From Spirogloea muscicola (lineage: Eukaryota > Streptophyta > Zygnematophyceae > Spirogloeales > Spirogloeaceae), in the NCBI GenBank assembly GCA_009602725.1, contig WELB01000001.1:742783-791865 (forward strand): a stretch of 49,083 bases of DNA, in the 5' to 3' direction. Numbering within the stretch: the first letter of the stretch is position 1; the number at the start of each line of letters is the position of its first letter. The position numbers were made by a program, and so were the translations under genes. This document shows, in pieces, positions 16,440-48,865 of this stretch. Under the pieces are notes generated by a model. That model saw only the letters and a list, made by a program, of their open reading frames with translations, did no database searches and was not told the DNA's origin.

Positions 16440-18075
16440 TTTTTGGGCTGGCTTTTCGTGCCACTTCTTCTCTCGCGTTCCCAGCTCGCTCGACGCCCGA
16501 AGGACGCCTGGGAAGGCTCACTCTCCATCGGACCTTGTCCTTTCTCTGCCCCCATTGGGAGTGCCACTTCTTCTTTCTCTGCCGCGCCTTGGCTGCTGCA
16601 TCTGCTTTTCTGACAGGACGACGCTTTTCCGCCATTTCTGAAGTCGTCCTGGGCTGGCCTTTCACAGCCACTGCCTTATAGTGGAAGAGCAGTTTGTTTT
16701 GGGCTGGCCTCTCACATCCATTTGCCTCACATTGGCTTAGCTCTTTCTTTCTACTTCACCTTCGCTGGAGTCTCTTGCAAAGCTGTGTGGTCATGGAGCC
16801 TTCTGGCCCTTAGTACCTGCAGCCAAGTTGCTAGCGCATGTTTACCGCATGCGCTTGGCCGTCTCGCTGCAGAGGTCCATGGCCCGCGCGCTGCACCTGC
16901 GTGCCGGACGAGCCCTCGCTGCTGCCTCTGGCCCTGGCCAGGGGACCCGCTTCCAGAGGCCAAGTTTCTCTGACTTAAGGCTGCTTAGCAGGGGTTACTG
17001 AGAGTTTCGTAGCTGCTTAATATTGTTTTGTGCTTGTTTTTCTTAGTGCTTCCCCTGGCCCCTTCTTGCACTGTTCTTTTTTGGGCTGGCCTTTTCCAGC
17101 CCCTATCCTCTATGGGCGGCGAGCCCTTCTTCTTTGTACCTTGTCTGGGCTGGACATCCACAGCCCTCGTCCCCATTGGATGAGCTTACTCTCTCACTTA
17201 CTCTGATCTGCACTTGCTGACTGGAGGTCATTGAGAGCCTCCCCGCAGAAGTCACAGAGAGTAGTCGTGCTGGCCTTTCACCGTCATTGCCTCACAGTAT
17301 AAGAGCTGTTTCTTCTCTGCCCTTGTTCATATAACTGGGCTGGGTACTCACAGCCACTGTCTTACATCGAATCCATTTTCTGCAGCAGCCACGGAGAGTA
17401 GTCTCGTATTTTTGCGCCTTCCGGCCTATCAGACCTTGTCAAATTGTTTTGCGCTGGCCTCTCAGACGACGAGCAGGCTGGATCCAACGTTGCTGGCTCG
17501 CTAGCGCAGGTTGTGCATTCCTTTTGGGCTGGCCTCTCACAGCCATTGCCTTACATTGAAAGAGCTCTCTTCTTATGGGCAGCTGTTGACTAGGGCTAAG
17601 TGAGCGTCCATTTGCAGATTTCACAAAGAAAATTGTTCAAAAGTTTGCACCTTCCGGCATTCTAACCCCCGACATTCTAATCTTCTTCATTCTTTTGGGC
17701 TGGCCTCTCACATCCATCGCCTTACATTCGAATAGCTTTTGCTTTCCTTAGGCCTCGCTCGGTAGAGCTGCTTCTTCTGTTAGGCTGGCTCTGACAGGAA
17801 ATGAGCTCTTTCAGAAGTGACGAGAGTTGTGAAAGGCCAGCCCATAAGTAAAGGACAAGGACAGGTGAGCAACTCGGCTTTCAAAGCTGCTGGCTCGCTC
17901 GCTCAGGTATGTCATATGCGCCTGGCATTCTTGCTCCAGCGTTCCCTACCTTTTGGCAGCGCACTTGCGTCAGGCCGCACTTTGTCTGTTGCTTCTGGGG
18001 TTTATCGTGGTGGCACTTTTCCGGCTGCATGGCTACTGTGACTTGCGGCTGCTAAGCAAGATTTGATGAGCACGC
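16440..18075 (+). mobile_element. Retrotransposon 3' ends with hairpin arrays (family C)
   Basis: Three worn C-termini lie in tandem. (1) About 16811-16998 reads open as YRMRLAVSLQRSMARALH and ends SDLRLLSRGY-stop. (2) Near 17200-17231 is SDLHLLTGGH-stop. (3) About 17880-18057 holds AGSLAQVCHMRLAFLLQRSL. Hairpin units start near 16651, 16701, 17083, 17147, 17337, 17526 and 17697 (+), and one minus copy lies near 17830-17850. Each unit is GGGCTGG, a loop of 5-8 bases, CAGCC, then ATYGCCTTACATTGGAAGAGCT or a relative. In (1) the stop codon is followed within 100 bases by the first hairpin, which places the hairpins in the 3' untranslated tail. Confidence 0.72.
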
Positions 18076-20324
18076 ATTTGTTGTAGCCTCTTGCATGGAT
18101 GTATGGTTTTGCGCGTTCCAACCCCTTCTGACCTTGTCCGTAAGCAATGGAAGAGCTTCTGAAATAAGCATAGAGCGCCTCTCGTCACAATTCCTCGCCT
18201 GCTGCGCCGCTGCCCGAGAGCAGGAGCAGGGAGCAGGGAGCAGGAGCTCTCTGTGCTCCAGCTCGCCACAGAATTAGGCTGCATGCGGGCGTCAGTAAGA
18301 CTTGGTATTTGCTCTTCTGCCTCTGCCTTGCACCTTCTGACGCATCGCCCTTCAGCCGCTGCCCCGAGCCCTCACCGTGGGGGCAAGTTTCCTGCACCAA
18401 ATAATCAGCGGTCTGTCTGACTGGCTCAGACTGCTGTCTCACGCCAGTTGAGCTGGTGTAGTAGTCTGGTCGCGGCTACTTGGTTTGCTGCGCCGGCCTC
18501 CACTTCCTTGCACCAAGGACTGGTTGTACAATTATTGAGCTAGCGAGTTGCAACCCTTATCCTTTAGGAGGAGCTTGCACTTGTTGTAGATTCTCCTGGT
18601 GAAATCTCTTGGGTCGTTCATGACGCCACTGCCTTGAGATTGCTCAGGGTTTTCTTCCCGCCTGTTTTGACGTGATAATGAGGGGTGGAGCATGTGCGAC
18701 TTGCAGGCCGAAGTCACAGGTAGGGCCTGCTTGCTTCTCTCAGGACCTTCATGTTGGCTGGCCTCTTGCAGAGACGACCACATCTGACAGGGAGTGCTCT
18801 TTTAGGAGCTTCAAGGGTGGCCCCTTATCAATGGCATTCAGTACGCAATGGCCATCAGCAAAAGCCCAACAGGAGACCGTCTCTTAGCTCAAATTAGTCA
18901 GTGCAAAGTGTCGTTTCTCTTTTGCCTACTCCTATCGGGCCAGAGATTGACAAGGGATCTTGAGCGTGTAACAACAAAGGAGTCAAGCTTGGCAATCCAG
19001 AGGTGTGCCTCTCACGCTGCCTTGCATAGTCACAGCAGCACCACTGTTGCCCCCCCCCCCCCCTCCCGCGCCTTTCCGTCTCACCCAGTCCCCAACCCAT
19101 GCCCATACAACAGGGCCTTCATATGTTACTATGGAGCTGACGCAATGCTGCAAGACCGTGTCGTCCTCACCCACTCCAGTAAGTGTGGATTACTTGAGAT
19201 GCTCCTCTTGTTGGCGCCTTGTGGCTCAAGACTTAATCGCCATAGCTTGACACCGTTATGTCTTACTCTATCTAGCTGATCTTGTTACTCTGACTGTCAC
19301 TGTCACTCTGATACCCGTGCTTGACAATTGGCATTCGTTTGCGAGCCCTCTCTGAGGGTGTCAGTGCATTGGGACTTAATCATTGTGTTTGCTCGTGTGT
19401 TTGGTCTTGCATCACAACCACCCCTCTTAAAGAAATCCATCTGGCACAAGTTCTCAATGTATGCACTATGATTCCTTCATCGTAAACACATTGTCGTTGT
19501 TCAGATTATTTGACAAGCTACTCTCGTCATTTTCGCGCTACCTGGCTTCCAACTTACTTTAGCTTGTCTGCCTGCCATGTGGATCCTGAAACGTCGCTTT
19601 TCTCACCTGATCTCTTACTCGTCTCTTACTGATCTCTTATCGATGTGCACTGGCAGTCAACGCTGCAGCACGACGAATAGAGTTTAATCAGTTGCTCCCA
19701 GGATAATATCGTTTCATGCGAGCAAGTGAAGGGCAGGCATTAAGCATTCCAGAGATTGTTGGGACAGGCTAAAGCTGAGGCCTCAATCTTGTTGTTGGCT
19801 TGTGAGAAGCAGGCGTGTCCTAGCCTATGCTTGAGTTCCTGCCAGCCCTGGGCAGCGTGCAAGCCTAGGTTGATGGTCAGCAAGCTATGAGAGAAGATAA
19901 GAACCCATGTGTCATGTTGACAGCCGCATCATACAAAGTGCACACAACCTTGCCATTGCTATGCGTGCATCGAGCTTCATCACAGGCAGGCTTAAGCACG
20001 GACTCTTCTTGTGCAGCTGCAGGGCGCACGTGCTGCTGGCCCTTGGCTGCTTCTTGTCATTTGTGGCTGCCAATTCGAGAGCGCTTGCAGTGGTGCCACA
20101 GCCTGCAAGACTTGCAAAGAGCCGCGGACGGGCCTGCGTGCAATTGTGCATATGCCAGCGGGAGGAGATAGCGGCAGGCCTGGGTGCGCCCGGGCGGGCT
20201 CCCTTGGTCTCTTGGCACGCGCTGCATACTGCATATGTACGGTCAGCTGCCTGCGAATAGCATGGCCGATGAGCCACCAGGGCCGCAAGGATCAAGACGT
20301 GTAATTAGTGAAGGAGGGCCTGAG
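18076..20324. other. Gene-poor stretch, nothing recognised
   Basis: Only short frames without recognisable domains. There is a C14 run at about 19051-19064. The interval 19890-20290 has overlapping frames on both strands with no coding signal I trust. Confidence 0.4.
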
Positions 20325-20680
20325 TGCTAAGTACGAAGACAAGTACATCTAGAAATGTACATCACCTGCTGCCTAGCCGACCCAGTCAATAAGCGACAGA
20401 TCAGCAGGTAGACGTCGCTAACCGGTGTCCAGATTCCAGATGGCAGACGCTTGGCCCTCCTGCCACCATCCAAGCCTCACCCGGCTTCCAGGTGCAAAGC
20501 ATGAGCCTGCGCTCGCTGCATGAAAAGTGTTACACGACGGTGCAAGAACGACGCCTGCTGCTGGCAAGCCCATCGCAACCTGAAGCACATCGTCACATCT
20601 AGCATACCCTAGAATAGCAAGATTACTGAACAGGGCATGGAATCGAGTACCTTTGTCAGCCAGAGATGTCTGACTGCGGC
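20325..20680 (-). mobile_element. Degenerate family A retrotransposon C-terminus
   Basis: A minus-strand frame reads GTRFHALFSNLAILGYAR, colinear with MGPRFHTLLEKIASLGYAR in the better copy at 31681-32553. It continues with CDDVLQVAMGLPAA against REDMLPAQLGMPAA. Its 3' side (20330-20430) matches the family A end and tail, with many substitutions. Confidence 0.7.
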
Positions 20681-20799
20681 CGCTAGGCGGGGTGGCGGCT
20701 GCCACAGCTGCGGGGCTCGGGGCGGGCGCGAGAGAGGGCGGCGGGCGGACGCGTGGTTGGGGCGCCGCGGCGGGTGATGAAGCTACTCCGGGCTTTCTC

Positions 20800-21500
20800 C
20801 CAGCGCTTTTCCGGCCCCCTTCGGACCCTGTCCAATCATTTCCGGGCTGATTTTCACAATGTGCTTTAAGCGCTTTTCTGGCCCCTTTGGAGTTTGTATC
20901 ACTCTTCTTTTCCTGGGCTGGCCAATCACAGCCATCGCCTTTCTTGTGGAATAGACTCTCCTGTGTTCATACTTTCTGGGCTGGCTTTCCTCAGCCCCCG
21001 CCCCCTCTGGAAGAGCTCACATCTTTCGTTGTCTTTCGCATGCGCCTGGCGATATCGTTCCAACGTTCCCTTGCCCACGCAGTTCACACGCGCGCTGGAC
21101 GCGCTCTGGCCGCCGCCTCCGGGTCTCGGCGGAGTGCCTCCTTCCCTGCATCGAGCTACTCTGACCTGATGTTGCTCACTCGCGGGTACTGAGCTTCCTT
21201 AATGTGTTGTCGTGTTTGGCAAAGTAAACCATTTTCGGCACCTTGTTTGGCTTTGGACATTGTCCATTGCTTTTGGGCTGGCTTTGCCAGCCCCTCCTCT
21301 CTATGGGCGAGCACTTTCTCTTTTCTCACAGCCCTCGCCACCTTTGATGAGCTTACTTCCTCTTTCTTATCATTCCCAGCCACCAGTCAATCTGGCCGCG
21401 CTATTCTTCTTACCCCTCACTTGCCGTTTACTACCCATGTCCATTCCTTTTTTGGGCTGGCCTCTCCCAGCCACTGCCGTCAAATTTGGAAGCGCATGTT
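20800..21500 (+). mobile_element. Retrotransposon 3' end with flanking hairpin units
   Basis: An open frame, FRMRLAISFQRSLAHAVHTR, runs to SSYSDLMLLTRGY-stop at about 21190. Hairpin units at 20915 and 20978 lie upstream, and at 21275 and 21454 downstream. The unit at 21275 has the longest stem: GGGCTGG, loop CTTTG, CCAGCCC. The arrangement (coding end, stop, about 80 bases, hairpin, hairpin) repeats that at 16998-17170. Confidence 0.75.
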
Positions 21501-21930
21501 CCTTTCTTTACTACCCCCCGCGATGGCGGAGCCGCCGCCGCCGCGTGGCGGGCGGAGATCTATGGTGGGCTCTCTGCAACTGCCGCCGCCAAAAACGATC
21601 GGTGGCGCGCAACCGTCGCGAGTAACGAGCGGTCGTGCTGCGGCGACCGGACCAAGGTTCCGACATACGGCGCACGTGGCTCCGGCGCGTGGGCCGGCTG
21701 CCGGCGCGTGGGCGGCACCACAGGCCGGCCTGCCACGAGCACGTGCAGTAGGGGGAGGGATCCGGGATCCGACCCCCCACCCACTTGGAGAAGGACGTGC
21801 CGCCGACTGCCGGCGGAGCCGACGGTCGCCGGGCCAACGGGCGTGCCGAGATGACTCAGACCCCTCAGAGCTCTCATCCGGGCTCATCTACCCCGGCTCT
21901 GTTTGCCAAGCCCTGTTTGCTTAGCTTTTG
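21501..21930. other. GC-rich block, no supported gene
   Basis: Frames of over 100 codons exist on both strands but are low-complexity Arg, Ala, Pro and Gly. No conserved motif is seen. A small direct repeat GGGATCC lies near 21760. Confidence 0.35.
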
Positions 21931-22180
21931 GCTCCGCACACACACTTATGAACACCCTCTGTATCCACCTGGGTGGCTTTCAGAGTCGCTCTCCTGAATA
22001 AAGCAGCTGCATCCTTCTCTCAGCTCTTCTGACTTCCTAGTGCTGACACGGGGGTGCTAAGACCGCTCTCTTCACCTAGCCTGTGGCTCCGCTAACATAC
22101 TTATGAACACCCACTGTATGCACCTGGCTGGATTTCACGGCTGCTCTTTAGAATCAGCAGCCGCATCCTCCGCGGGCAGA
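21931..22180 (+). mobile_element. Retrotransposon 3' end between two tandem hairpin units of the second family
   Basis: Two units about 152 bases apart each read GGCTCCGC, then ACTTATGAACACCC, CACCTGG, a hairpin, and CAGC(A/T)GC(C/T)GCATCC. Between them, 22028-22061 encodes SSSDFLVLTRGC-stop. The second unit has a perfect stem, CGGCTGCT with AGCAGCCG, around 22138-22163. Confidence 0.65.
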
Positions 22181-22189
22181 GCGTTACCC

Positions 22190-23040
22190 CTCGGGAAAGA
22201 GCCCTTTCCAAGTTAAGAAGAAGCTCATCCAAAAGGGGCGATGGCTGTGACAGGAGTAGCTCTTGCAAATGGGCGAGGTCTGCAAGTGGCCAACCCATCA
22301 AACACTGACAAGGTCCAGAGACCCGACGTGGATAGCACGCAAAGTACAAAGAATACAGGATGGCTGCCCAGTAACGGCCCAGGCAGCAGCTGCAAGTCGG
22401 AATTGCTGTAAATTGCTCTGAAAGGCTGTGAAAGGCCCGCCAAAAAGAAATGGACAAGGGTCAAAGGGGCCAGATTGCCTAGTGGAACGAGTACGTACTG
22501 CCGATGGCTGCTCATATTCCCTTAATCAGCAGCCGCAAGTAGGAATAGCGGACAGCCGGACAGAAGAAGAAACACTTCTAGAGGGGGAGAGCTGGATAGG
22601 AGAAGCTCCTCAAGAAGAGGGCGAGGAAAGGCGAGCCCATTAGAAGGTGACAGAAGGAAAGAAGGTGAGGTACAGTTCCGTCAAGGTAAGGCAACGGCTG
22701 TAAGAGGCCAGCCCAGAAGAGATTAGAGAGGTTGTTGCCCCGGCAAAAGTCGAAGGAGGCAGCCAAGGTGCGGCCTGCCAGCAAGCACGGCAAGCACTGG
22801 AATAGCCGGAGCGAGACGGAGAGGCGCATGCTTTTAATCTCTAAAAACGACCGGCGACTTCTGCCGACTTGACGCCGGGACAGTGCTGACCACACGAGCC
22901 GCTAGAGGAGGTCGTGTCCTGAACCGTGTCCTGAACGTCCCATGGACGTCGATCAACAGAAAAAGGAGGTGGCTGAGGAAAGGCCAGCCCAAGAAGATTC
23001 CAAAATGTCCAGCCACATAAAAAAACGACAACGACGACGA
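22190..23040 (-). mobile_element. Minus-strand hairpin units and worn retroelement tails
   Basis: Reverse units occur near 22240, 22290, 22430, 22695 and 22970, each a GGCTGT..GGCCAGCC-type sequence with the flanking GACAAGG and GGGGCCAG words typical of the arrays. A short + oriented second-family unit lies at 22505-22545. No open coding frame remains. Confidence 0.6.
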
Positions 23041-24890
23041 GAAGGCAACCCCAGGCGTCAGTGGTGTGTTCACGAGCGCCGGCCCATGGTGGCAATAGAG
23101 CGATTCAAGTAAGCTCTCATTTGGCTGCCGACATTACTTCGACAGCGAGGCACACCTGCCGTATGTGGCGCCAAGCTGTGAGCCCCGACAGTCTCAAAAG
23201 CGGGCGTTGTGCGCCTCCGCCCATTCCCGACCTCAGCGCCGCCGCCAGTCAGAAGCCTCGGCAAAGGCCCCGCCATGTGCACCACATGAGGGCTCCCACA
23301 GGGCTCCCAATCCGCCTCAAGGGCGCAAGTCAATTGGAAGAGAAGGCTCCTCCAACGAGGAGTGGTGGTTGCAAGAAATCTGCCCAAACAGGTACCCGAG
23401 GTTTGGGATCCAAGCCCTAATACAGGGGTCAATGAAGGAGGCCGCCGTCTCCTGCACCTCCTGAAGCTGGGTCCCTCAACTCGGCGATTGCAACTGGAAA
23501 TTTGCCTTGTATTGCATGATGCCGTCCCCTTCTAATGTATAAATCTTCAACGCCACATCTGCGCACAACGTACTTGGTACAAGCGATGACAACTCACTGA
23601 AGTCTTGTGCTATGCCCCATGCTCAATGAATTCACTGGCTTGAAGTCAGGCATCCACGCAATTGGGACGGCTCAGTATAGCATTACGGTCAAGCTTACTA
23701 GCTTCATCTTCTTCACCTCTGAAAAAGGTTCATGCTTCTATGATACATGTGTTGCTTCGCTCAAGCCCTAAAAGTACAGATTTACATCGTGCTCGTGCTT
23801 CTTATTGGCATCGCTTGGTTGTCTTCATAACCTCGATGTTGCTATCAGCAACCTTCCACCTCACTAGCTGTCAGACTCGGGTGGCGGTAGAATCTCCATG
23901 TACAACGAAAGGATATAAACGGTGTCCTCATGCTTTGCATGTGGTCGTGCTGTGTCGAACATTGACAGATGTTGGACATTGAAGCCTTAACAACTGCTAC
24001 GATTGTAAGGCATGGGCTGGTCTACCAGATTGAGCGAGCGACTCAAAGTGAATGAATGTTGATCAAAAGCTTGTGCGATAGTCATAAAAAGGAGAGTCAA
24101 GGAAGAAGTGATGCATACTGACGCCGTGCGAAGCTTCTACAAGCACTTACAAGCCGGTGTAGCTCAGGCTCTGTCAACATATGATGACAAGCTTTGAGCC
24201 TGCACAACGGAACAGGAGGAGCAGCGGCGTGGAAGATCCAGGCGCAGTTCTGTAATCGTTGCTGCTCGGTACGCGAAGGATGCATAGTGCATATGAGAAT
24301 GCTCGCTCGAAGTGATAGGCGACTTAAGGCTAAACAAGGCGTGTACCCTGTGGTGAGCTTCACCGAGCGCATGGAGCCTGCAGCCGGAGCTGCAAGGCCC
24401 GGGCCTGCCTACGCAGCTAGGAAAGTTGGCCAAACGCCGGCTTGGCCACATGCTCGAGACGATCGCATCGCCTGCCCAGCCGGCGGCCGCATCCGTCCAG
24501 CAACCCGTACCGCGTTTGTGGCCTGCAAGCGGCCTTCTCCACGGCAGGCCGGCCTCGGCCACGAGGTCGCCTCGTGGGTCTATCGGTGTTTGCCGCCCCA
24601 TATGGCGGCACAAGGCGGGCCCGCGGGCGCCCCCTGACTCTCACAACCGAACATGCGGTGTGCAGGCCGCCTGGAGTCCCGGGCGGCGAGGCGAGGTGGG
24701 GCTGAACAGGGGCCGGTGGCAGCGGCCACACCAGGAGAACGGTGGCGGCGGCCCCACCAGGAGACAGAAGAATCGGGAAATTCGAGCGTCAGACAATGGC
24801 CAGAAGGGCCGCCTGCAAGGTGAGAGCACCGACGGCCGGTCGGCGCCGGGGCCAGCGGGGTGGGAAAAGGGAGTATTTCCCAGGAATCCA
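23041..24890. other. No supported gene
   Basis: Moderate to GC-rich sequence. A 26-base tandem duplication lies at about 24714-24765 (GGTGGC.GCGGCC.CACCAGGAGA twice). Frames at 24194-25199 are long because of GC content, and I see no family in them. Confidence 0.35.
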
Positions 24891-24950
24891 ATGGCTGCTG
24901 ATGTCAGAAGAAGAGCGGCAGTGAAAGCCAGCCAGAGAGAGGCAGCTCTT
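24891..24950 (-). repeat. Second-family hairpin unit, minus strand
   Basis: In reverse it reads CTGGCTGGCTTTCACTGCCG, then CTCTTCTTCTGACATCAGCAGCC, the layout of the second-family units at 22117 and 47205. Confidence 0.5.
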
Positions 24951-26080: not shown

Positions 26081-26084
26081 TTCA

Positions 26085-26140
26085 CTTTCAGGCTGGCCAC
26101 TTCACAGCCACAGCCCCCATGGTGGTGCACGCTTCTTCTC
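26085..26140 (+). repeat. Isolated hairpin unit
   Basis: GGCTGGccacttCACAGCC followed by ACAGCCCCCATGG is a single worn copy of the first hairpin family, without a coding end beside it. Confidence 0.5.
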
Positions 26141-28118: not shown

Positions 28119-28150
<32 letters not shown>

Positions 28151-31575: not shown

Positions 31576-31599
31576 CGGAGGCGCAGGAGAGTGTATTAA

Positions 31600-32689
31600 G
31601 AGATGGAGGGCCATGTGTGGCCAAGTACAAAGGTAAGCACATTGACAAATGTCTGTCACTCTGCTGCTAAGCTGACCCGCTCAGTAACCACGAGTAAGCA
31701 CATAGAGGTCACTAACTGATGCCCGAATACCGGACGGCACTCGACAACCTCTGGAGCTACCAGCTAAGGCTCGACCAGCTTTTTGATGCAATGCATGAGC
31801 CTGAGCTCGCTGCAGACAAACTGATACTCGACGTCGCAAGAACGACAAGAAGGCTGCCGGCATGCCCAGCTGAGCTGGAAGCATATCCTCACGACGTGCA
31901 TATCCCAAGCTTGCTATCTTCTCCAGCAAGGTGTGAAAGCGAGGGCCCATGCAGCCGAATGTGTCGATGGCCGCCGGTAGGAGATGATCGCTGCGGGGGT
32001 AGTCAGAGTAGTGTCGGAGCTTTCTCTGCTCAGCACCTCCCACCGCGTGGCCAGAAATATGTGTCGAAGCGGAACTCTTGTATGCCTCTGTCACCACCAC
32101 GTCAACCAAGGCTCGTGGGCCTCCGCCAGGTTGTACACCCACAATGTCCAGGGTGCGACGGTGATGACGTCCCTGCGAATCCGTGGTGATGGGCATTACA
32201 TTGCTCACTTCCACGATGGCGCGGTAGCCGGCGTCGCGCATCAAGCCTGCCAGGGCGTCCCGTAGGAGATTGTGGACGCCAACCACCTCAGGGCCTGTGG
32301 GACACCGCAGCATGTGGGTGGCAAGGTCTCCACCCTCCGCACGAAAGCCGCACTCACACTGTGTCACTCCAATTAGGCAGGTCGGGGGCAGGCCCAGGAA
32401 CAGCTGGAGAAGCGTCCGGAATGCTTCAGGGCTGATTCTGAAGGCGTTGTGAATTCCGTGTGTGGTGAGCCAATCCGTTGCCCCAGGCGTTGCCAGCGAT
32501 GTGAGACGTGCCAGACTCCTTGGATTGGTGTTGATATCCGGCATCGTCCTCAACGACTTGCGGCGCTCGTCCTCAACTGCAGCAACGAGCCTGGCCTGTG
32601 CCGCTTTGTCTGGTGCTTGGTGCTTGGGGGAGGGGACGGTGTGTAACTCGAGTTCGCATTGGGGTCACGGTCGGGTAATCGGTGAATCA
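31600..32689 (-). mobile_element. Non-LTR retrotransposon, family A, 5'-truncated
   Basis: The best preserved copy in the window. Coding sequence is open on the minus strand from about 32640 to 31681 and is followed by a tail ending near 31600. That tail matches the 3' tails at 3993-4086 and 49024-49083. The copy begins abruptly next to a small tandem repeat with a palindrome (32690-32740), as expected of a 5'-truncated insertion. Confidence 0.82.
31681..32553 (-). CDS. C-terminal part of a retrotransposon reverse transcriptase protein (zinc knuckle and restriction-like endonuclease)
   Basis: 290 codons from the first ATG; the same frame extends further upstream to about 32640, so this is the tail end of a longer protein. 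In order: a palm/thumb-distal segment (ISPEAFRTLLQLFLGL); a zinc knuckle CECGFRAEGGDLATHMLRC (C-x1-C-x11-H-x3-C); HNLLRDALAGL; a restriction-like endonuclease core RTLDIVG...RALVDVVVTEA, where D in LDIV and D in VDVV fit the R..PD...D pattern of R2-type elements; then the conserved KLRHYSDYPRSDHLLPAAIDTFG; and the terminal SDLYVLTRGY. The reverse-transcriptase catalytic part is absent from this copy. Confidence 0.78.
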   Translation of the reverse strand: MRTMPDINTNPRSLARLTSLATPGATDWLTTHGIHNAFRISPEAFRTLLQLFLGLPPTCLIGVTQCECGFRAEGGDLATHMLRCPTGPEVVGVHNLLRDALAGLMRDAGYRAIVEVSNVMPITTDSQGRHHRRTLDIVGVQPGGGPRALVDVVVTEAYKSSASTHISGHAVGGAEQRKLRHYSDYPRSDHLLPAAIDTFGCMGPRFHTLLEKIASLGYARREDMLPAQLGMPAAFLSFLRRRVSVCLQRAQAHALHQKAGRALAGSSRGCRVPSGIRASVSDLYVLTRGY

Positions 32690-33529: not shown

Positions 33530-33725
33530 GTTTCAAAAGTAACAGTAACTCGAACCAGGGGAGTGGCCCCTAAGTAACAGTAACTCGAACCAGGGGAGTG
33601 GCCCCTAAGTAACAGTAACTCGAACAAGGGGAGTGGCCCCAGTAACAGCGAACTCGAACCAAGGGGAGTGGCCCCAGTAACGGCGAACTCGAACCAAGGG
33701 GAGTGGCCCCAGTAACTGGGGACTT
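33530..33725. repeat. 35-base minisatellite, about five copies
   Basis: The unit contains AACTCGAACCAGGGGAGTGG followed by CCCC(TAAG)TAACAG. Its AACTCG word starts at 33547, 33582, 33617, 33651 and 33686, and a worn sixth copy begins near 33721. Confidence 0.92.
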
Positions 33726-34689: not shown

Positions 34690-35110
34690 ACGGGATATCG
34701 CACGACAAGCTATTCTGACCTGCACTTGCTGACTAGAGGTTACTGAGAGCCCCCTTGTCGTCTTAGCACTTCGTCCCATGCTTTCTGCGCCATTCGGCTC
34801 CTCTTGACCTTGTCCTTTCCTTTTGGGCTGGCTTCTCCCAGCCACCAGTCAATTCGGCCGCCCTTTTCTTCTTTTTCTTTGGGCCTTGTCGACTCTTTCC
34901 GGTGTTTAGGTCTAGGATTATGGGGTTCAAAGATTCTTCTTGCCTCTTTTGGCTGTGTGCTTTAGCGCTTTCTGGCCCCTTCGGACTTTGTTCGTTCTTT
35001 TTTGGGCTGGCCAATCAAAGCCATCGCCTTCACTGGAAGAGTGTCAGAGCATTCTTGTACATTTTTTTGGGCTGGCATCTCGCAGCCATTGCCGTAATTC
35101 GGAAGAGCCA
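34690..35110 (+). mobile_element. Retrotransposon 3' end with hairpin units
   Basis: 34702-34746 encodes TSYSDLHLLTRGY-stop. Hairpin units follow at 34825, 35004 and 35069, the second and third closed by ATCGCCTTCACTGGAAGAG and ATTGCCGTAATTCGGAAGAG. Confidence 0.75.
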
Positions 35111-35149
35111 AAGAGCTGCTTGTTCAAGGGCATCCACTCCGACTGTGCC

Positions 35150-35699: not shown

Positions 35700-36200
35700 T
35701 GTAAGGCAAGAAAGGAGCGGCACTACAAAACAACCTCAGGGAGACCACTTTCAGCCGTGCTATACGAACAAGTACAAAGTAAGGCGCTCCAGATTACTCT
35801 GGCAGAGATATATGTGCTCACTCATGGGTACTAGAGTCCCCCTCAGGTGTGTTATTTTGTATGGATGTGCTCATGCAAATATCTTGAACGTTGTGTGACT
35901 GTTGAAATGGGTTCAGCTGGCAGGACAATCAGTACACCTAACTGTGTAATACTTAAGAAGAGAGAAGGCGCGCGGAGCGCATGAAATGAAAGGGAGGCCA
36001 ATGCAAGCCAACACAGTCTTCAGGCAGAGTCTAGTGCAAACTAAATAAGGCTACATAATACGGAGACCTCAACGAAGGTGCTAAAGGTAACGGGGTGACA
36101 TTAGTACCCAGGGGTGAGCACAAACACATCCGACAAGCTAACTTGGGGAGCGCGGCCACGAAAGCCGGAGGCCTGGCTTGGAGCGCGCCCTGCACGTTGA
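35700..36200. mobile_element. Two family B 3' ends, tail to tail
   Basis: On the + strand, 35801-35835 encodes AEIYVLTHGY-stop. On the - strand, about 36160-36105 encodes SLSDVFVLTPGY-stop and its tail runs down to about 35950 (GCGCATGAA, GGGAGGCCA and CTTCAGGCA words). Confidence 0.65.
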
Positions 36201-36254
36201 TGAAGAGCCAATGCTTGCCAGCGCTGCAAACTAAGCGAAAGAAGAAGCGATCAT

Positions 36255-37290: not shown

Positions 37291-37389
37291 AGACTCAAGC
37301 ACCACAAATTAAGTAAATCAATTTGGCATGAAATTGCTAGCACCTACCTGTTGAGTGCATCTCTCGACATGCCTCTATGTGCAGGAAAG

Positions 37390-37500
37390 GGGTTCTTGTC
37401 CAAGGGGCCGAGGGCTGTGAAGAGCCAGCCCAGAAAAGTCTTCAGACCTTGTCCATTCCTTTGGGCTGGCCAGCCACCAGTTAATCTGGCCGCGCTTGCC
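37390..37500. repeat. Hairpin units, one minus and one plus
   Basis: A reverse unit near 37408-37432 (GAGGGCTGTGAAGAGCCAGCCC) is followed by a forward GGGCTGGCCAGCC at 37463 that has lost its loop. Confidence 0.6.
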
Positions 37501-40800: not shown

Positions 40801-42008
40801 AAAGCTACTGTACAGGCCAGGCTGGCATTGATGCTGCTGAAGCATCTGCAGACCTCCTGCGCTCCAATATTGAGCGCAAGGAGGCTGTAGGAGGTAAGCA
40901 CTGTTTGCTTACATGTCTTCTCTGATGTTTGCATCTTGCCTAGGTCTAGCCACTGTGCTTGTTAGGTCTCCCGTCTTGATCTGCAGCAACTCTATGCTCT
41001 GCCTTTTGTAATGCAAGATGCCCTGTGCTACTAAACTGCAACAATAAGGGCCATCATGCTATTGCCTTTAGAACCTGTCCACTATGATTGATGGATATTG
41101 TTACTTTGTGTGCATTGCCATGAATATCTGATGTCACACACATGTCAGGGTTTCCTGCACTCGTGAGGCACATGCACAGTATAACTTATTAAACTACAGG
41201 ACTGACTGGTTGACTTGGTCCTATTTACATGTCATCAGATGTAAAATTTGTGAATGAGGACAGGAATCCTGCCAGCTGGGGGACTGATACTCCGGACGAC
41301 TTGGTGCTTGACAAGAAGAAGCTCAAGGAGGCCCTCAAGAAGGTCAGTATGAGGCAGCAAGTCATGTATGATGCTTTTGTATTATTAGATTGTTGGCCAC
41401 ATCTTGTTCTCCTATTAGGGTTCTTTCTACTTTGCATGACCTTGAGCTGCATGGCGCTGTGAGAGACCATTGCTGTGATCATCTTCACTCCTGGCTTCAC
41501 ATGCATGGAGTACACAGCAACTTCAGCAACGGGTGGGTCTGTTAGGACCAATAAGGGATGAGCATGTTGCTCAGGAGAGGCCTGCTGACTATGGTGCTCA
41601 CGTCTTACAGGAAGCAGAGAGGTCCAATGAGGAGAAGGATGAGAGAAAACGAAAGTACAATGTGACATACAGTAACGAGGTATATAGTGAAGCACCTGCT
41701 GCGAGTTGGACTGTCCTCGTGTGTTCTCACAAGTTTTCAAGCCATCTCTATTTTGAGGGATTGTGCAGCTGGTGTTAGAGTGCATCGCTCTGTTCATTTT
41801 GCTGTCAGGTTCTAGTACATTAAGCCGTACATCATGGGAGTCGTAGATGTGGTTTATTTTGCACATGTCGTTGGAATGGGGGTGAGCTGGGGTCTATTCT
41901 TGCTGGTGGTTGCAGGTCAGTGCCGAGGAGATGGAGGCGTATCGGCTTAAAAAGTCACATTTCGACGATCCGATGAGAGATTTTATTGGCAATGATAACA
42001 TCGACTAG
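37832..42008 (+). CDS. SLU7: Pre-mRNA splicing factor SLU7
   Basis: Exons: 37832-37847, 38032-38195, 38329-38441, 38631-38883, 39236-39390, 39595-39730, 39943-40059, 40281-40463, 40677-40893, 41239-41342, 41611-41679, 41916-42008. All borders are GT-AG and the lengths give 539 codons (Arabidopsis about 535). SLU7 acts in the second catalytic step of splicing, helping 3' splice-site choice. Residues 6-60 read [42 protein letters not shown], the family hallmark. The zinc knuckle [14 protein letters not shown] uses C96, C99, H104 and C109. Also diagnostic: [60 protein letters not shown] and the basic DERKRKYNV. The 16-base first exon gives MATAS, the plant SLU7 N-terminus. An ATG at 38016 in the first intron would give an equally long protein beginning MTPRAASFK. 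The leader has GCC repeats and one n. Confidence 0.97.
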
Positions 42009-43000
42009 GAGTCCTTCCACAGATTGTTACATTGGCGAATTGTAGGCACAGCACTTTCAGAGCCACTCTGCACAGTCTCCAGACTTTGTCAAGCTTAAGG
42101 TGGGCAACGGGTTTAGTCAAGGGCTAGCCATTGCCGTGCTAGTACAAGTCTGATAGCATACACGTGGTGGTGTAAGGACTGGGGCAGAGCACATGCTTAC
42201 ACACGTTTCAAGGCCTCCACTGCCTTGCATATGCAGTGCTGCCCAGGCACACGTCTGGGCCTGGTCTCGAAGGCCAGCAGCTCTCCTTCCTGACAGCTCA
42301 GCAGGCATCCAACAGGGTAGCCTGCCATATGTCACTGCCAAGCATCTTATGTAGCTGTACGAGCACTGTGATTGATAAGGAGCAACGTTGAGCTGTCCCT
42401 TTGGCAAGGGCATATGTAATTCGTCAGACGTGTGGAGGAAGAGACAACCTGACTGTTAAGTGTTGCACACGAATGTGCCAACTCTTCCTTTACACCAAGT
42501 TGCACTGCGAACTTGAGGAGCCGTATCTTTTCCTCGACGGGATCATGGGGTGAGTAAACAGCAGCAAGATCCTACTTTGTCGCACTGCTTTTTGGTATGG
42601 ACATGCCATCCTTGTGTAAGTTCTCCAAGGGACTGGACTGCTCTTCCAAGGAGAGTGTTGGAAGGCTTTGTGCTATGCTGAAAGTGTATCAGAAAGATTG
42701 CGAGACTGGCAACATGCTTGCACTCTTGAGACCATGCAAGTGGTGCAAGTCAGGTGGCGGGTGCTTAGTCAGGCTTCGCAAGCTCGTCATTATTCAGCTG
42801 ACGTTGGTGGGAAGTAGGCTAGGACAATGCCTAACGATGATCAACCTCCGCAGCCATGTGAATTTTGCAATGGATGCTGCCATGGCAATTACAATAAATG
42901 CTGCCAAGTGTCATTAAGCAGGGATTACATGCAACCGTGAGAATGATCATTGATAGCAACAAGTTCTACTACGCTCAGAATTTGTAACGTAGTAATAAGG
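42009..43000 (+). other. Probable SLU7 3' UTR and intergenic DNA
   Basis: No gene recognised. TGTAA words, the usual algal poly(A) signal, occur at 42415-42419, near 42614 and at 42983-42987, and I cannot say which is used. A 106-codon frame at 42597 has no supporting features. Confidence 0.4.
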
Positions 43001-44070
43001 TGAGCTAGTGGGCCTGGTTGGGTAGCCATTAACCCGTCCTACTGGGCCGTGAGAGCCTCCCTGGATAGTGAGGCACCGGCACATCCGGCAGGGAGTTGGG
43101 GTGATCCTGCCGCTTTCTACGCCCTAGCTATGGCTGCCACCCACTAAGGGTGCGGCTCTGTGTGCGGCCTGGAGGAGCTTAGTGCTCGCCGGCTGTGTGT
43201 GCAGCCAGGCGGAGAGTTGTGCTCGCCGCCTCTGTATGCGGCCAGGAGTAACTTTGTGCTACTCTGGACTTTGTGTACTACCAGACTAAGCTCTGTGTCT
43301 TCCTATGAGCGGATCTGCGTCTGTACCGCCGAGACGAGGGTGGTCTGCTGGTCCTCCAGACGAGGGCAGTAGTGCAGCGGCATGCTTACCACCCTACCCC
43401 TCATCTACCGGCAAGGTGCCAGACCCCCCCACTAGGCATGGTGGTGCTTGGAGTCCTCCTGGGCGGGCCAGCACATGTGGCGCTGGTGGTGCAGTCCACC
43501 CTCGAGTGGCAGTTTCAGACCCTCTCAGCCCTCCCTACACTGCATGACTCCCAGCTGGCCGTTGCAATGCTAACCCGGTGCGTGGCCCCAACGCCCAACC
43601 TACCTGCAGCGGGCCGATCCACGCACCACTGCACTGGACAACATCTACACAGCTGCGGACGTCCACTTTCTATAAGTCCTGCACGGCCTGCTGGACCGCC
43701 TGGCACTCCCTACACCGCCGGCCGCCCTACTCCAGCTGACGCTCCCCATTGCGCCATAGACATGTACGGCTGCTACAGAACGAAGTGGTCTTCCCTCCTC
43801 CATCACCTGGCTCTGCATGTCGATGCCCGCCGATGTAGTCGGGCGGGTAGCTTAGGGCATTCGAGCGTCCCGCAACCCACCGATTGTGTCCCCCTTAGCT
43901 AGCTCATCACCCCGTAACAGGACATTTGTAAAGCTAGAATTGGCCTTGTCATGCCCACCGCGCGCCTTCTCCCCACAAGGGCGGTCTGGATGCCGCCCGC
44001 TGGCTCGCCTGGCCCGCGCAGCACACCTGGGGTATCTGCAGCAAGTTGTGGACGTAATATGCAACTGACA
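43001..44070 (+). mobile_element. Decayed family B retrotransposon 3' part, upstream of the BTB gene
   Basis: 43740-43890 reads IDMYGCYRTKWSSLLHHLALHVDARR and AGSLGHSSVPQ, as in the copies at 6550 and 46810. The tail 43887-43976 (CCCCCTTAGCTAGCTCAT to CACCGCGCGCCTTCTC) matches 6840-6936. The C-terminal stretch between the two is deleted. 43150-43270 has short direct repeats of a GTGCGGCC..GAG word. Confidence 0.65.
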
Positions 44071-44099
44071 CCATTGCTCTGCTTTTTGTGTAATCGGAC

Positions 44100-45765
44100 A
44101 TGAAGTTTGTTGTGGGGCCATCTGGAAGGAGGATCTTTGCCCACCGAGTGGTGCTGGTCTGCACCTGCGCGTACTTCCAGGAAATTTCAGCTGATGACAA
44201 AGTCAGCATGGAGGTTGTGAGATTGCCTTCTGTAAATCCAGAGGTCATTCTTGCTCTTTTACAGTATCTATACCGAGGAACTCTGAAGGTATGTCAGCTT
44301 TCACAAGGTTCGTGTGGAGAGTACGCAGAATCTCTTAGGCAATCAAGAGAGCGGCAAACAGGTTCTGCAAACAGATTCTATGTGTGAGCGGCACAGTGGT
44401 CATTGCAAGTGAACCCCGACAACATAATGTCAGGCCTATGCATGTCAGGTGCACAAGGAACGCTTAGAAGAGCTGCGGGAGCTTGCTGAGGAATTTGGAG
44501 TACCAACGTTGGTCCAACAATGTGAAGAGCATCTTTCTTCCGCTTCTCCTGCAGGCGGCCAGAGCAGACGTGGTGAGTCTGGCCTACCAGATGAAAAGTT
44601 GCTTCTGCTTCTCATTGTCAATGACTTCGTCCACCTTATGCTGCTAAAGTATATCTTCGGCTTGGTGCGTTTGGCATGACAGGTGACACAGGTGCTTTGG
44701 CTTTGGACAGAGCTCCTATTGATTTGGCATATGTGACAACCACAAGCAATACTGATAGCCTGGATCAAATGGCACGCATCCCCGTGGACACCCGCAAATT
44801 GCAGGAGCTCCAAAGATTAGGCCATTATTGTGATGTGTCCCTCTCTCTTGATGGTGGTATGTTTGTAAGCCGAGTCCACAGCGTGGTGCTGAGTGCCTGG
44901 AGCCCCGCCTTTGCGAGGGTAAGGCCCTGCTTGACATTAGACATGGAGAGCCTTGGCTGCAAAGATTGCCAGAAAAACAGCGAGCAATGGTGCAATTCTC
45001 ATTTTTGGTGTGATTGGTCTGTCAAGTGCTGGTTGCCTATGATGTGTTTGCTCACCACAGTCAGCCTAAATAGGAAAAATGCGACCAACGCAAAGTGCTT
45101 AGCACTTGCGAAGTGCTAAGCATCTGCAAGCATCATGTGCGTTGCAGATGCTTGCAAATGGCATGCAGGAGAGCAGAACCAAGGTTATTCATCTCTCCGA
45201 TGCATCACCAGAGGCAGTCGTGACAATGCTTCACTTCTTATACAGTGGAAGTTTGCCAGACATGGGAGGCAGCAACAGTGAGGCTGTTCTGCTGTCTGTG
45301 CTATCACTAGCCCACTGCTTCCTGGTGTGGCCTTTACAGCACGCTTGCTGCAACCTACTACTAAAGTATGTGACTCAGGTGTGGAATGTGGCTCATGATT
45401 CCATACCCAGAGTGCTTGAGAAACGCCTCATTGTAAGCAAGGCAATCAAACCAAGCGCTTCATACCATGGCAGCATATCACACATGCTGAGCAAATCCAT
45501 ACTTTGGTTCCCTTGTATTGTATTGTGTGAAAATAAACCAAGCAGGTTCGAGCAAGAAGGTGACGTGCAGTTCGCTAGAGGGACTGCGAAGCAACTGGTG
45601 GCACTGTGCAAAGCCCTGTACCTGCAGCTCAAGAGGTCCTCCACAGTGTCCAAACGCTTCATCAGGAGGGGCCAAACAGTATCAGCTCCGGTAATAGCTT
45701 GGAGTGGCAAGTGGGACCCTGCCCGGCGCTTCCTTGCGACAGGGGGATACTTCTCCGGCAGCTAG
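44100..45765 (+). CDS. Tandem BTB/POZ domain protein, ends possibly truncated
   Basis: Exons 44100-44288, 44449-44572, 44683-44918 and 45148 onward, in phase. BTB 1: MKFVVGPSGRRIFAHRVVL, ASADDK-type loop, VILALLQYLYRGTLK, then VHKERLEELRELAEEFGVPTLVQQCEEHL. BTB 2: GHYCDVSLSLDGGMFVSRVH, SVVLSAWSPAFAR, IHLSDASPEAVVTMLHFLYSG, LSLAHCFLVWPLQHACCNLLL. BTB domains dimerise and commonly bind cullin-3; tandem forms occur in IBtk-like and plant BTB proteins. A donor is available at 45378; without it the frame runs open to 45765 (389 residues), and its last part borders a retroelement end. Before the ATG the frame reads stop-S-D, and S-D is itself typical of a BTB start. The 5' part may therefore have been lost at the element boundary near 44070. 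Possible BACK or other C-terminal domains are not resolved. Confidence 0.75.
45096..45153 (+). promoter_or_regulatory. Two overlapping hairpins at a BTB-gene 3' splice site
   Basis: Hairpin 1: TGCTTAGCACTT (45096-45107), loop GCG, AAGTGCTAAGCA (45111-45122), a perfect 12-bp stem. Hairpin 2: AAGCATCTGCAA (45118-45129), 12-base loop, TTGCAGATGCTT (45142-45153), also a perfect 12-bp stem. It encloses the acceptor AG at 45146-45147. Both use 45118-45122 and cannot form together. Confidence 0.75.
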
Positions 45766-46060
45766 TCTGTCGGATCTGAAGCTCCTCACTCGTCACTACT
45801 GAGTGATCCATCTTCCCCCTGCTCTACCATAGCCTCTTCAGTCCCCTTTGTAGCTGCTCCACGCTTTTTCGGCCCCTTCGAACCTTTGTCAATTCTTTTT
45901 GGGCTGGCTTTTCGCAGCCCTTGCCCCCATTGGGAGTGCCACTTCTTCCTTGCGCCATTTCTTCTCCGGCCAGACCTTGTCCACTTTATTTGGGGCTGGC
46001 CTCTCACACCCACCAGTCGATTTGGAAGCGCTGTTCTCTTCAAATTATCCCTCTCCGACG
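45700..46060 (+). mobile_element. Retrotransposon 3' end with hairpin units, behind the BTB gene
   Basis: 45763-45802 encodes SLSDLKLLTRHY-stop in the +1 frame relative to the BTB frame. Hairpin units follow at 45901 (GGGCTGGcttttcgCAGCCC) and 45993. The left boundary inside 45540-45760 is not defined. Confidence 0.65.
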
Positions 46061-46269
46061 TTCGCAGACCTCCTCCGCTTTTCCCATCACTCGCAACAGA
46101 TCAGGTCGATCCGCGGCGTGGGCGGGAAGCTCTGACCCTTCTCACCTGAAGGGACAAGCCCGTTTCACAAGCGCCTCCAATGAGCATGCCACGAGCTTCT
46201 TCAAAGCACTGCTCAAGGAGAATGGGCGTGGGCTTCTCGTCTTCACTCACGTCGTTCACTGAGTAGACT
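46061..46269. other. Spacer between retroelement fragments
   Basis: No gene is recognised in this short interval. Confidence 0.35.
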
Positions 46270-47200
46270 CTACGGGAGCATTGAGTGGCTCAACGCTCTG
46301 CCAAGTATACGAGTCCCATCGACAGTTTACGAGTCCCATCGACTCTCCGACGACCTCTTCCGGACGGCCGTCCACTGTCACTTCCTTCCCCGTCCTTTGC
46401 TTGGCTGGCATCCGACAGTGTGAAGTGGCCGTCGTTCGGAAGACGAGATCTCCTTGGCGGCTCACATGCTTGGATGTATTGAGGGAGGTGAACGCAATGC
46501 CTTCCACAACCTTCTGAGAGACGCTATGTATGGCTTGTGCGCGAGGCAGTTTACCATCCGGCCATGGAGGTGCCACCCCGGGCATCATGCCGGCCCTTTA
46601 GGAGTGGGCAAAGCTTACATCAGGCGTCTGGATGTGATTGCCACCCCACAGTGCGGTGGACCTCGTCTCCTCTCAACGTCGTCCTTACTGACGCGTTCCA
46701 ACCAGGCACCCACCTCGACTCCGCCAGGTTGGGCGACTAATCACGCGGAGAAGAGGCAGGAGCGCACATCATAAGGACCACACCGGAGCGACCAATTCTT
46801 CCCGTGCACGATGGACATTTATGGCGGTCATAGTATGCAGTGGTCTTTTCTCCCCCATCGCCTGGCACAGTTTGTCAATGTCCACCGACGTGGTCGGGCG
46901 GGTAGTTTAGGCTATACTAGCGTCCCGCAAGCAATAGTTGCTTGCTACAGAATGCAGCTTACGTTGAGGCTGCAGCGCTCCCAGGCACTCGCGATATACT
47001 AGTGTTGGGCGCGCACTAGGCCAGGCTACTGGCTTGCGGGGTGGTGCTCTGGCTCCCTCCGCGTAGCTTGTCGGATATGTATGTGCACACTCTTGGGTAC
47101 TAGAGACCGCCGTAATACCCCGTTACCAGGACTTCGTAAGGCTCGGATTGGCCTCCCTCTCGTTCATGCGCATCGTGCACCTTGCTTCCTCCCCGTCATG
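46270..47200 (+). pseudogene. Decayed family B retrotransposon C-terminal region
   Basis: In shifting frames: LAAHMLGCIEGGERNAFHNLLRD (46452-46530, zinc-knuckle end and following helix), GVGKAYIRRLDVIATPQCGG (46605-46665, endonuclease core), DIYGGHSMQWSFLPHRLA (46811 on), AGSLGYTSVPQAIVACYR, LRLQRSQALAIY, and SDMYVHTLGY-stop near 47070-47102. The tail resembles 6840-6936. It is the longest colinear family B copy in the window. Confidence 0.7.
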
Positions 47201-47204
47201 TACA

Positions 47205-47270
47205 CACTCTGCAGGCACCTGGCTGACTTTCACAGCCGCTCGTTTTATAGCAGCAGCCGCATTCTTCCCT
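47205..47270 (+). repeat. Second-family hairpin unit
   Basis: TGCAGGCACCTGGCTGACTT, TCACAGCCGCTC, then AGCAGCAGCCGCATTCTTCCC. Layout as at 22117-22172. Confidence 0.6.
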
Positions 47271-47402
47271 CGCCCCTCTCATCAACTCCTCCTCCCCCTC
47301 CCCTAACCTCTCCCCGTCTGGCCCACTCGCTCCCTCGGCTCACCCCCGCTCCCCTCCCCCTCTCTTCCCCTCGCCCGCTCCCTCTCTCTCCCCACTTGTC
47401 CA
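47271..47402 (+). repeat. Polypyrimidine tract of about 130 bases
   Basis: Almost unbroken C and T, mainly CTCCC and CCCTCTC words, with few purines. The long homopyrimidine strand has triplex (H-DNA) potential. Confidence 0.8.
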
Positions 47403-47770
47403 CTCTTTGCACTATCTTCTGCCTGAACACTGTATTGGCTTGGGTTGGCCACCCTTCAGTTCATGCGCACCGCAGCCGTCTCTCCTTACTTTCACGCCCT
47501 CTTCCTGCCCTCTGCCGGAAACTAGTTGCTGTGACCTGCGGTTGCTCAACATGGGTTATTGAGTGCCTAGTTGCCACTTGCGACGCTGTGGCTTCAGCGC
47601 TTTTCTGGCCCAAGGGTGTCTGCAGACGAAGAAAGACTCTTCCAGGAGAGAAAGACGCTTCCAGGAGAGGGCGGTGGCTGGGAGAGGCCAGCCCAGAAAA
47701 AAGAATGAACAGAGTTCTGATTTAAGCCCTACTACAAAGTTCAAAGGGGCCAGAAAAGCGCTGAAGCGCT
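47403..47770. mobile_element. Family B tail (+), worn 3' end (+) and a minus hairpin unit
   Basis: 47405-47490 matches the reverse of 35955-36060 (CACTATCTTCTGCCTGAACACTG, TTCATGCGCACCGC). 47526-47562 encodes CCDLRLLNMGY-stop. A reverse hairpin unit lies at 47668-47690 (GGTGGCTGGGAGAGGCCAGCCC). Confidence 0.6.
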
Positions 47771-47824
47771 AAGCGACTCAAGTGCCCACTACGCACTCAG
47801 TAATTCCTGTTGAGCAGCCGCAGG

Positions 47825-48420
47825 TCAGTCTTATATCTGGGCTGGCCTCTCACAGCCATCGCCCTCTCCTGGAAGAGTACATCTTCTTTTGCACACTCCC
47901 TTGGGCTTGGGCTGGCCTCTCCCAGCCACCGCCATTGCCTTACATTCAACAAGCTGTTTCTTTTGACCTTGTTCATTCCTTTGGGCTGGCCATTTTGTCT
48001 GGGCTGGCTTCCTACAGCCTCGCCCCCATTGGGAAGATCTCCGTTCACATTGGGTCTTGCAAATCTGCTCATTCGTTTACCTGCGCTACCCAATCACAGC
48101 CATCGCCCGCTTCTGGAAGAGTCGCTCTCTCACAGCCACTGCCTTTCATCAGAAGAGCTGTGCCTGGCTGTCACTTTCTCCAGGACTTCGTCTTCTGCTC
48201 TGGGCTAGGCCAATCAACAGCCATCGCCCCTTTCCTCGCCTGTCCGTTCCTTTGGGCTGGCCTTCTCACAGCCATCATTGCCCCCCGCATTGGAGGAGCT
48301 GTGCCTTCCCTCCCTCCCTTTACACACGCATTCATCCCTTTTCGGACCTCGTCGATACTTTTACGTGCCGCATGTTCACAGCCCTCGCCCCCTTCGGGAG
48401 AGCCACTTCCATTCCGTTTC
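47825..48420 (+). repeat. Dense hairpin-unit array
   Basis: Nine or ten units in 600 bases: 47839, 47909, 47983, 48001, about 48085, 48130, 48201, 48254 and 48368. Spacing is about 45-110 bases. Stems are well kept at 47839, 47909, 48001 and 48254 (GGGCTGG..CAGCC) and eroded in others, where the distal arm and its flank (CAGCCATCGCC..GGAAGAG) are kept longer than the proximal arm. Confidence 0.82.
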
Positions 48421-48865
48421 CTTTCCCTCCCGCGCTGCGTAACCGCCCCGCGGCGGGGGCGCCGGCAGGGTGGGGGGAGCCGGGGGAGGGCGTTACTGGG
48501 GGAGGGATGACGGAGGGAGGCGGTGGCCCCCACTTGGAGCCCGCCGCCACCCCGGCCAGCTGGCGGCGCGTCGCGACGTTGCGATCGCGCTCCAACACGT
48601 GGCGAGCTCGGAGAGGAGGAGGCGTGCCCCCCCCTGGGGGCGGGCCCCACCGGTGCGCCCCCACGGCCGGCTCTGACGCCGCCCGCTTTCCTTCCTCCAG
48701 GAAGAGCCGCCGCCATTGCGGGGAGGCGCTTCTCAGGGCGCCGCAGCACCGCACAAAATATCGGGCGCCGGGCTCCCACCCCCCCCCCCCGCCGGCCTCG
48801 CTGCCGTCTCTGACATGCGCCAGCCAGCACGAGCTGCGCCCTCCCCTTCCCCGCCGGCACGAGCT
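48421..48865. other. GC-rich block, no supported gene
   Basis: G-rich then C-rich sequence, with a C12 run at about 48779-48790. Frames on both strands are open only because of composition. Confidence 0.35.

Follow-up and report, generated by a model that had tools for sequence, protein, structure and literature searches.

A 3'-terminal hairpin module of R2-related retrotransposons and its nested arrays in Spirogloea muscicola

Introduction

The reverse transcription of several non-long-terminal-repeat (non-LTR) retrotransposons depends on the 3' end of their RNA. R2Bm is reported to start target-primed reverse transcription only on RNA carrying its 3' untranslated region (UTR), of which a core of 43 nucleotides is enough (PMC10499050). 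Four of the R2-group clades are described as mostly target-specific and a further one, HERO, as having many non-specific members (PMC4640811). In the stringent long interspersed nuclear elements (LINEs) of zebrafish, the stem is reported to be recognised in a general way and the loop specifically (PMC4176376). Nested clusters of LINEs are described for Zepp in Coccomyxa (PMC3446292) and for Zepp-like elements of Chlamydomonas (PMC8226300), both of the L1 type. Here we analyse a stretch of 49,083 nucleotides of the Spirogloea muscicola genome (contig WELB01000001.1, positions 742783-791865; hereafter the window), in which a short hairpin recurs in arrays behind retrotransposon coding ends. We consider it probable that these hairpins constitute a 3'-terminal module, present once per element in a family of R2-related retrotransposons, that this module likely serves as a label for the reverse transcriptase, and that the arrays result from reinsertion.

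One hairpin in the 3' untranslated region of each element

The strict hairpin pattern, GGGCTGG-N5-8-CAGCC, was searched in the whole genome (153,112,186 bases in 471 contigs) with the same pattern reversed as control. With 18,757 matches on the plus strand and 18,673 on the minus strand, against 19 and 18 for the control, the excess is about a thousandfold. In the window, exact GGGCTGG occurs 24 times on the plus strand and 19 times on the minus strand, some occurrences lacking a hairpin. It is present at all 16 plus-strand positions listed in the first-pass annotation of this DNA; at seven of the eight minus-strand positions the reverse arm was found (with one mismatch at 6356), but 35215 carries no arm. 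Allowing up to one mismatch yields 50 sites in the window, whereas five first-order Markov shuffles gave 8-11; about ten of the 50 may therefore be due to chance. Among the 23 strict hairpins, 19 lie within recognised element 3' ends (expectation value E <= 0.01), in agreement with the proposed link between units and element ends, and the other four (17147, 48001 and 48254 on the plus strand, 22990 on the minus strand) have flanks that look unit-like by eye. Neither Rfam, at the gathering threshold, nor ARAGORN gave a match in the window, which thus contains no known RNA family and no short interspersed nuclear element (SINE) derived from tRNA.

A genome search also started from the last 49 codons of the copy at window position 21043; the best 150 of its 16,226 first-look candidates were scored. 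Six of these 150 contain open frames of 1386-1433 amino acids and are copies, with 99.7-99.95% pairwise identity, of one element of about 4.3 kilobases, which we call lineage A. The hairpin is positioned 91 bases past the stop codon in all six (with one arm base altered at locus L056), and five share a common end, GGGCGAGCC followed by TTC repeats or similar pyrimidines; at L052 the match to the other copies breaks off about ten bases past the hairpin. Because of this location in full-length copies, past the stop and near the CTT-rich end, the hairpin is a 3'-UTR module. The first-pass annotation had already assigned it to the 3' UTR of non-LTR retrotransposons, behind at least four SDLxxLTRGY stop codons. 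The next hairpin does follow the four stops named there, 79-99 bases downstream, but the C-terminus is strictly of that form in two cases only, the others being SDLRLLSRGY and SDLKLLTRHY. Past 3993 (+), 31681 (-) and 49024 (+), all SDLYVLTRGY, no GGGCTGG hairpin lies downstream within the bases covered.

The lineages of the family are distinguished by their last residues, and each has its own 3' end. A GGCTG..CAGCC hairpin is found in lineages B (SDLRLLSRGY), C (SDLHLLTRGY), F (SDFLLLTRGY) and I (SDLKLLTRHY). The module begins with a pyrimidine-rich lead, followed by a constant stem of 7-8 base pairs whose loop differs between lineages. Behind the stem come a conserved segment, which reads ATGGGCGAGC in A and B, and an end rich in CTT. 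In subtype C2 the coding end is of C type and the 3' UTR is A-like, and such chimeric ends imply that the 3' module was exchanged between lineages; C2 was seen at L077, L079 and L081 and at L054 around 6485. Complete ends were found in 64 copies, of which 50 match the probe over 90% of its length or more. Between stop and end, 35 of these 50 hold one GGGCTGG-type hairpin, 15 none and 0 two. The hairpin-less ends comprise ten of lineage D and one of lineage E, which have other ends, plus three of A and one of B with changed arms. Some 37,000 hairpins of one genome are thereby accounted for as element ends.

Ty3/Gypsy-like elements, which give the genome's best matches to RVT_1, were considered as carriers of the hairpin and rejected, the 12 loci examined holding a single strict hairpin (L020). 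Loci L009-L018 are nearly identical Ty3/Gypsy-like copies with an open frame of 1237 amino acids or similar.

Arrays probably formed by nested insertion

At E <= 0.01, 50 terminal units (the last 70-290 bases or so of an element) were recognised in the window, 36 on the plus strand and 14 on the minus strand. They form 32 adjacent pairs less than 300 bases apart, against 16.9 expected, a number reached by none of 2,000 random placements. Twenty-two pairs are on the same strand and ten on opposite strands; in ten, both units belong to one lineage. The arrays are mosaics that mix several lineages and both strands. The first-pass annotation had read them as several units per tail, multiplied inside the tail. 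Tandem amplification would account for the closeness of the units, in places 60-70 bases apart, and for the four consecutive H-type units on one strand at 17265-17737. Yet the complete 3' ends, none of which holds two units, contradict it for lineages A, B and C, the strand and lineage composition of the pairs speaks against it, and the output of Tandem Repeats Finder for the window contains no hairpin array; we give this origin next to no credence. Thus, while the 3'-UTR module of the earlier interpretation stands, its amplification within the tail is not supported.

The arrays most likely exist because short, 5'-truncated copies insert into or beside the 3' ends of older copies. Junctions demonstrate this for some copies, and the remainder would have the same origin. 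In lineage A junctions, read by eye, the tail stops inside the 3' end of another lineage, with short repeats such as CCTTT(G) at L043, CATTG at L050 and CCCAA(T) at L037. Since many units measure just 45-70 bases, they could also be regarded as a non-autonomous family, similar to SINEs or to miniature inverted-repeat transposable elements, which borrows a LINE tail. This appears very unlikely, as 107 of the 131 H, C and I units in the loci examined are preceded, within 150 bases, by 3'-UTR or coding sequence of the family, and only five of the remaining ones have an unexplained upstream stretch in common with another unit; no partner SINE was found in these loci. The H-type flank pattern, assembled by eye, has no exact match: lineage H is probably old, or else the pattern is a composite without a real copy.

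For 23 lineage A copies the empty site was rebuilt by joining the flanks and compared with 1,500 control positions from the same loci and 1,500 from the window. Thirteen empty sites (12 at stricter scores) lie inside an older 3' end of the family, against 446 of the control positions in the same loci and 207 in the window; for sites that touch such an end the figures are 16 of 23, against 502 and 246. Pyrimidines are enriched in the eight bases preceding the insertions of these 23 copies (0.65 against 0.52; resampling, p 0.001), and TTT ends six of the 23 octamers, though some of this may be element sequence.

A single protein related to R2

Lineage A encodes a single open reading frame (ORF) with N-terminal C2H2-like fingers, a reverse transcriptase domain and, at the C-terminus, what we take to be a CCHC motif and a nuclease-type motif. 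Finger-like C..C..H..C words precede the reverse transcriptase; the frame of lineage D has 1267 amino acids. The C-terminal CCHC and R..D-V...D-V-V motif are common to both lineages. Full ORFs come from A and D only, because the frames of lineages B and E (1356 and 1369 amino acids) span assembly gaps. An alignment of 1,219 residues between the A and D proteins shows 44% identity; this similarity was missed by direct protein comparison and by a first blastp, and blastp without compositional adjustment gave 858 bits and 41% identity. Lineage D frames of exactly 1267 amino acids occur in at least eight places (eight of 150 listed matches; L089), as a young family with another 3' end.

Pfam recognises RVT_1 alone in the lineage A protein (E 2e-13), and a single-sequence search of PDB with the element protein returned nothing at E <= 1. 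A profile built from the A and D sequences matches the R2 proteins 9nl2 (9e-10), 9nl3 (2.5e-7) and R2Tg (9dou, 4e-7), against only 0.2 for LINE-1; the first, weak domain of the 9nl2 alignment spans the N-terminal finger region. Judged from sequence, SDLxxLTRGY marks the C-terminal end of the one ORF that these R2-related non-LTR retrotransposons carry.

Conservation of the module

The 3' UTR of each lineage was split 18 bases upstream of the hairpin into a proximal and a terminal part. Among lineages A, B, C and I the terminal 65 nucleotides or so are 62-81% identical (49-52% when shuffled), whereas the proximal part, at 44-55% against 43-52%, is at chance or slightly above. This conservation near the copy end between lineages agrees with the assignment of the hairpin to the 3' UTR. 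The terminal part of lineage F is weakly similar (55-59% against 47-48%), and those of D and E are near chance when compared with the other lineages.

A pattern with fixed flanks and a free stem has 1,601 and 1,578 matches on the two strands of the genome and none when reversed. In the first 100 of these 3,179 matches in contig order, all seven stem pairs are kept in 91, one of the nine misses being a parsing error. The common loops in the same 100 are CTTGT (25), TTGTT (19), CTTTG (19), CTTTT (18), CTGTT (8) and TTATT (5). GGGTTGG, in 13 of them, is the sole stem change that founded a subfamily, and it keeps a G-U pair. When the terminal 65-83 nucleotides were compared with 500 dinucleotide shuffles, lineage A (z -3.5) and lineage B (-4.0 and -4.7) folded better than the shuffles; C2 gave -2.2. 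The A and B folds suggested two further features, an upstream mini-hairpin (GGAC-NNN-GTCC) and an outer helix (GUCCAU/AUGGGC); neither is claimed, as covariation was found neither in the outer helices nor in the stem.

Weighing the proposed mechanism

We propose that the module is a label that would let the encoded reverse transcriptase select its own RNA, and that target-primed reverse transcription would start at the CUU end. Short 5'-truncated copies of several lineages would then repeatedly land in or beside older 3' ends.

A number of results weigh against this scheme. No GGGCTGG hairpin is present in lineages D and E, relatives that are or once were young: D (SDLYVLTRGY) ends in TTGGCCACACATGGCC, and E (SDLFVLTRGY) has GAATTG..CAATTC and GCGC..GCGC. 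Folding is weak in E (z -1.7) and D (-1.3) and no better than in shuffles for C (-0.4), I (-0.2), F (+0.4) and H (+1.1). Covariation was examined in 118 units that contain an ATGGG or ATTGG segment; 105 of them are distinct, and they fall into 59 clusters at 90%. The paired cells of P1, P2 and P3 amount to 0.62, 0.74 and 0.84, exactly as in shuffles. Double changes are not in excess; for P2, five were seen against 2.3 expected, a value reached in 51 of 1,000 shuffles. Thus neither the stem (P3) nor the two outer helices suggested by folding covary beyond sequence conservation. The first-pass annotation had looked to covarying pairs for support, and the outcome stands against that expectation, even though decayed copies in the alignment dilute the signal. 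As for the protein, a profile of its C-terminal third has no match in PDB, which leaves motifs as the sole guide to the endonuclease type, and the predicted fold of the window's lineage D C-terminus (mean predicted local distance difference test score 36.6) is unusable. Lastly, in a coarser test of five lineages with a single detector, 25 of 64 copies adjoin an older 3' end (A 14 of 30, B 2 of 6, C 2 of 8, D only 2 of 12, E 5 of 8), which is above the 13% of the window but near the local density of 33% (1,876 of 5,704). Self-targeting is therefore clear for lineage A only (and for 5 of 8 in E). Nesting is common and much of it is explained by regional density, a true preference being indicated for A alone.

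Could the sequence alone matter, the hairpin being a by-product of a conserved word? The near-invariant arms, the lack of compensatory changes and the folds of C, F, H and I would fit; against this, both arms stay constant while the loop varies, the subfamily-founding change retains its G-U pair, and A and B fold well below shuffles. We hold this explanation to be unlikely. We are equally sceptical of a module retained for another RNA step, such as 3'-end processing, stability, export or localisation: the conserved terminal 65 nucleotides or so do not reveal which protein reads them and no covariation was found, but the module sits directly at the priming end and combines a common stem with lineage-specific loops, and both R2 and stringent LINEs are reported to need 3'-UTR elements (PMC10499050, PMC4176376). 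Because compensatory covariation was sought and none was found, recognition of the hairpin by the reverse transcriptase is graded as likely, a reasonable reading by analogy with R2 and the stringent LINEs.

Beyond the recognition label, the CUU tail may anneal to pyrimidine tracts and so favour older 3' ends. The module would then have a dual role, as RNA a label for reverse transcription and as DNA a preferred landing place, a speculation that we put forward tentatively and on which we would not rely. If it is true, the family makes a safe haven of nested ends, and its lineages diverge by the loop of the label (in D and E by the entire hairpin) together with the protein. The co-resident lineages, with one stem, several loops and two other ends, provide a natural experiment on RNA recognition by R2-related reverse transcriptases.

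Features of the window

Coordinates of the family in the window are collected in Table 1.

Table 1. Element 3' ends and terminal units in the window
Feature	Position	Strand
Lineage A 3' end: last ~50 codons (SDLMLLTRGY, stop to 21192), 3' UTR, hairpin 21275, ATGGGCGAGC segment	21040..21315	+
Lineage B 3' end: SDLRLLSRGY, hairpin 17083, CTTCTTC tail abutting the next unit (17147)	16849..17129	+
Lineage C 3' end: SDLHLLTRGY (stop to 34746), hairpin 34825, CCAGTCAATTCGGCC segment	34689..34864	+
Lineage I 3' end: SDLKLLTRHY (stop to 45802), hairpin 45901, CCCCCATTGGGAGTGCC segment, CTTCTTCC tail	45701..45949	+
Lineage C terminal unit, 5'-truncated	37436..37499	+
C-like terminal unit directly past the lineage I end	45970..46032	+
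Two adjoining short H-type terminal units (16637-16691, 16697-16744)	16637..16744	+
Four H-type terminal units in a row (17265, 17335, 17506, 17692)	17265..17737	+
Opposite-strand unit beside the H-type run 17265-17737	17799..17857	-
H-type then I-type unit, immediately upstream of the lineage A end	20912..21022	+
Terminal unit, H or C type, downstream of the lineage A end	21439..21495	+
B-type unit (34946-35041) then H-type unit (35056-35109)	34946..35109	+
H-type terminal units (47831, 47905, 48120), hairpin 48001 between	47831..48160	+
Two lineage F ends: GGCTG..CAGCC hairpin, other flank	21909..22170	+
Lineage D 3' end: SDLYVLTRGY, terminal TTGGCCACACATGGCC in place of GGGCTGG	3937..4093	+
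Lineage D 3' end; frame 31684-32664 (-) spans the CCHC and endonuclease-like C-terminus (327 amino acids)	31587..31833	-
Lineage D 3' end, clipped by the window edge	48872..49083	+
Lineage E 3' end: SDLFVLTRGY type, terminal GAATTG..CAATTC hairpin	35959..36241	-
Lineage E 3' end, older copy	46952..47184	+

Apart from the family, the window contains an open frame with a BTB/POZ match (45103-45762, plus strand; Pfam 8.7e-9), which stops shortly before the lineage I end, and a weak OB_NTP_bind match (9360-10139, minus strand; 1.2e-5, under the Pfam cut-off), perhaps a helicase exon. A run of 123 T followed by a GAGG repeat occupies positions 1-175, and a 35-base tandem repeat in five copies (33537-33716, 94% matching) bears no relation to the hairpins. 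Elsewhere in the genome, Rubisco small-subunit genes were seen at four split loci. The exon at L092 scores 104-103 bits against PDB chains named 'small subunit 1A/2B, chloroplastic', which we take to be those of Arabidopsis, and 81 against 1gk8, presumably from Chlamydomonas; it is thus nearer to the land-plant chains, in line with a photosynthetic host of probable streptophyte affinity.

Comparison with known systems

With the R2 group (R2, NeSL, HERO, CRE and R4, which carry a restriction-like endonuclease) the family shares a single ORF, N-terminal zinc fingers and the reverse transcriptase, whose profile matches R2 proteins. Its C-terminal CCHC and nuclease-like motifs may correspond to the CCHC and PD-(D/E)XK nuclease of that group, as read from motifs. 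It differs in having no single target site, the 23 lineage A empty sites being all different. The family provides a measured case of non-site-specific R2-related elements of which at least one lineage enters its own kind at about twice the local-density expectation.

Like the stringent LINEs UnaL2, ZfL2-1 and ZfL2-2, the family has a stem-loop close to its 3' end, with a short repeat tail behind it. Its constant stem and variable loop match the pattern reported for such elements, in which stem recognition is general and loop recognition specific (PMC4176376). Those elements belong to the L2 clade, whereas the family described here has an R2-related protein and a stem that shows no compensatory changes above shuffles in the 59 clusters.

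Zepp and the Zepp-like elements likewise form nested LINE clusters. These are few and large, whereas here the copies are spread over the contigs examined and are mostly very short; Zepp elements are reported as L1-like (PMC8226300), whereas here the reverse transcriptase profile prefers R2 over LINE-1 and Pfam finds RVT_1 only, with no apurinic-like endonuclease of the L1 type. No description of the family was found in the literature searched at the level of titles and abstracts, with partial coverage. The family is very abundant, self-nesting and new, of a kind already known. It appears to act like a stringent LINE with an R2-related protein, is not site-specific, and is best kept apart from R2 proper.

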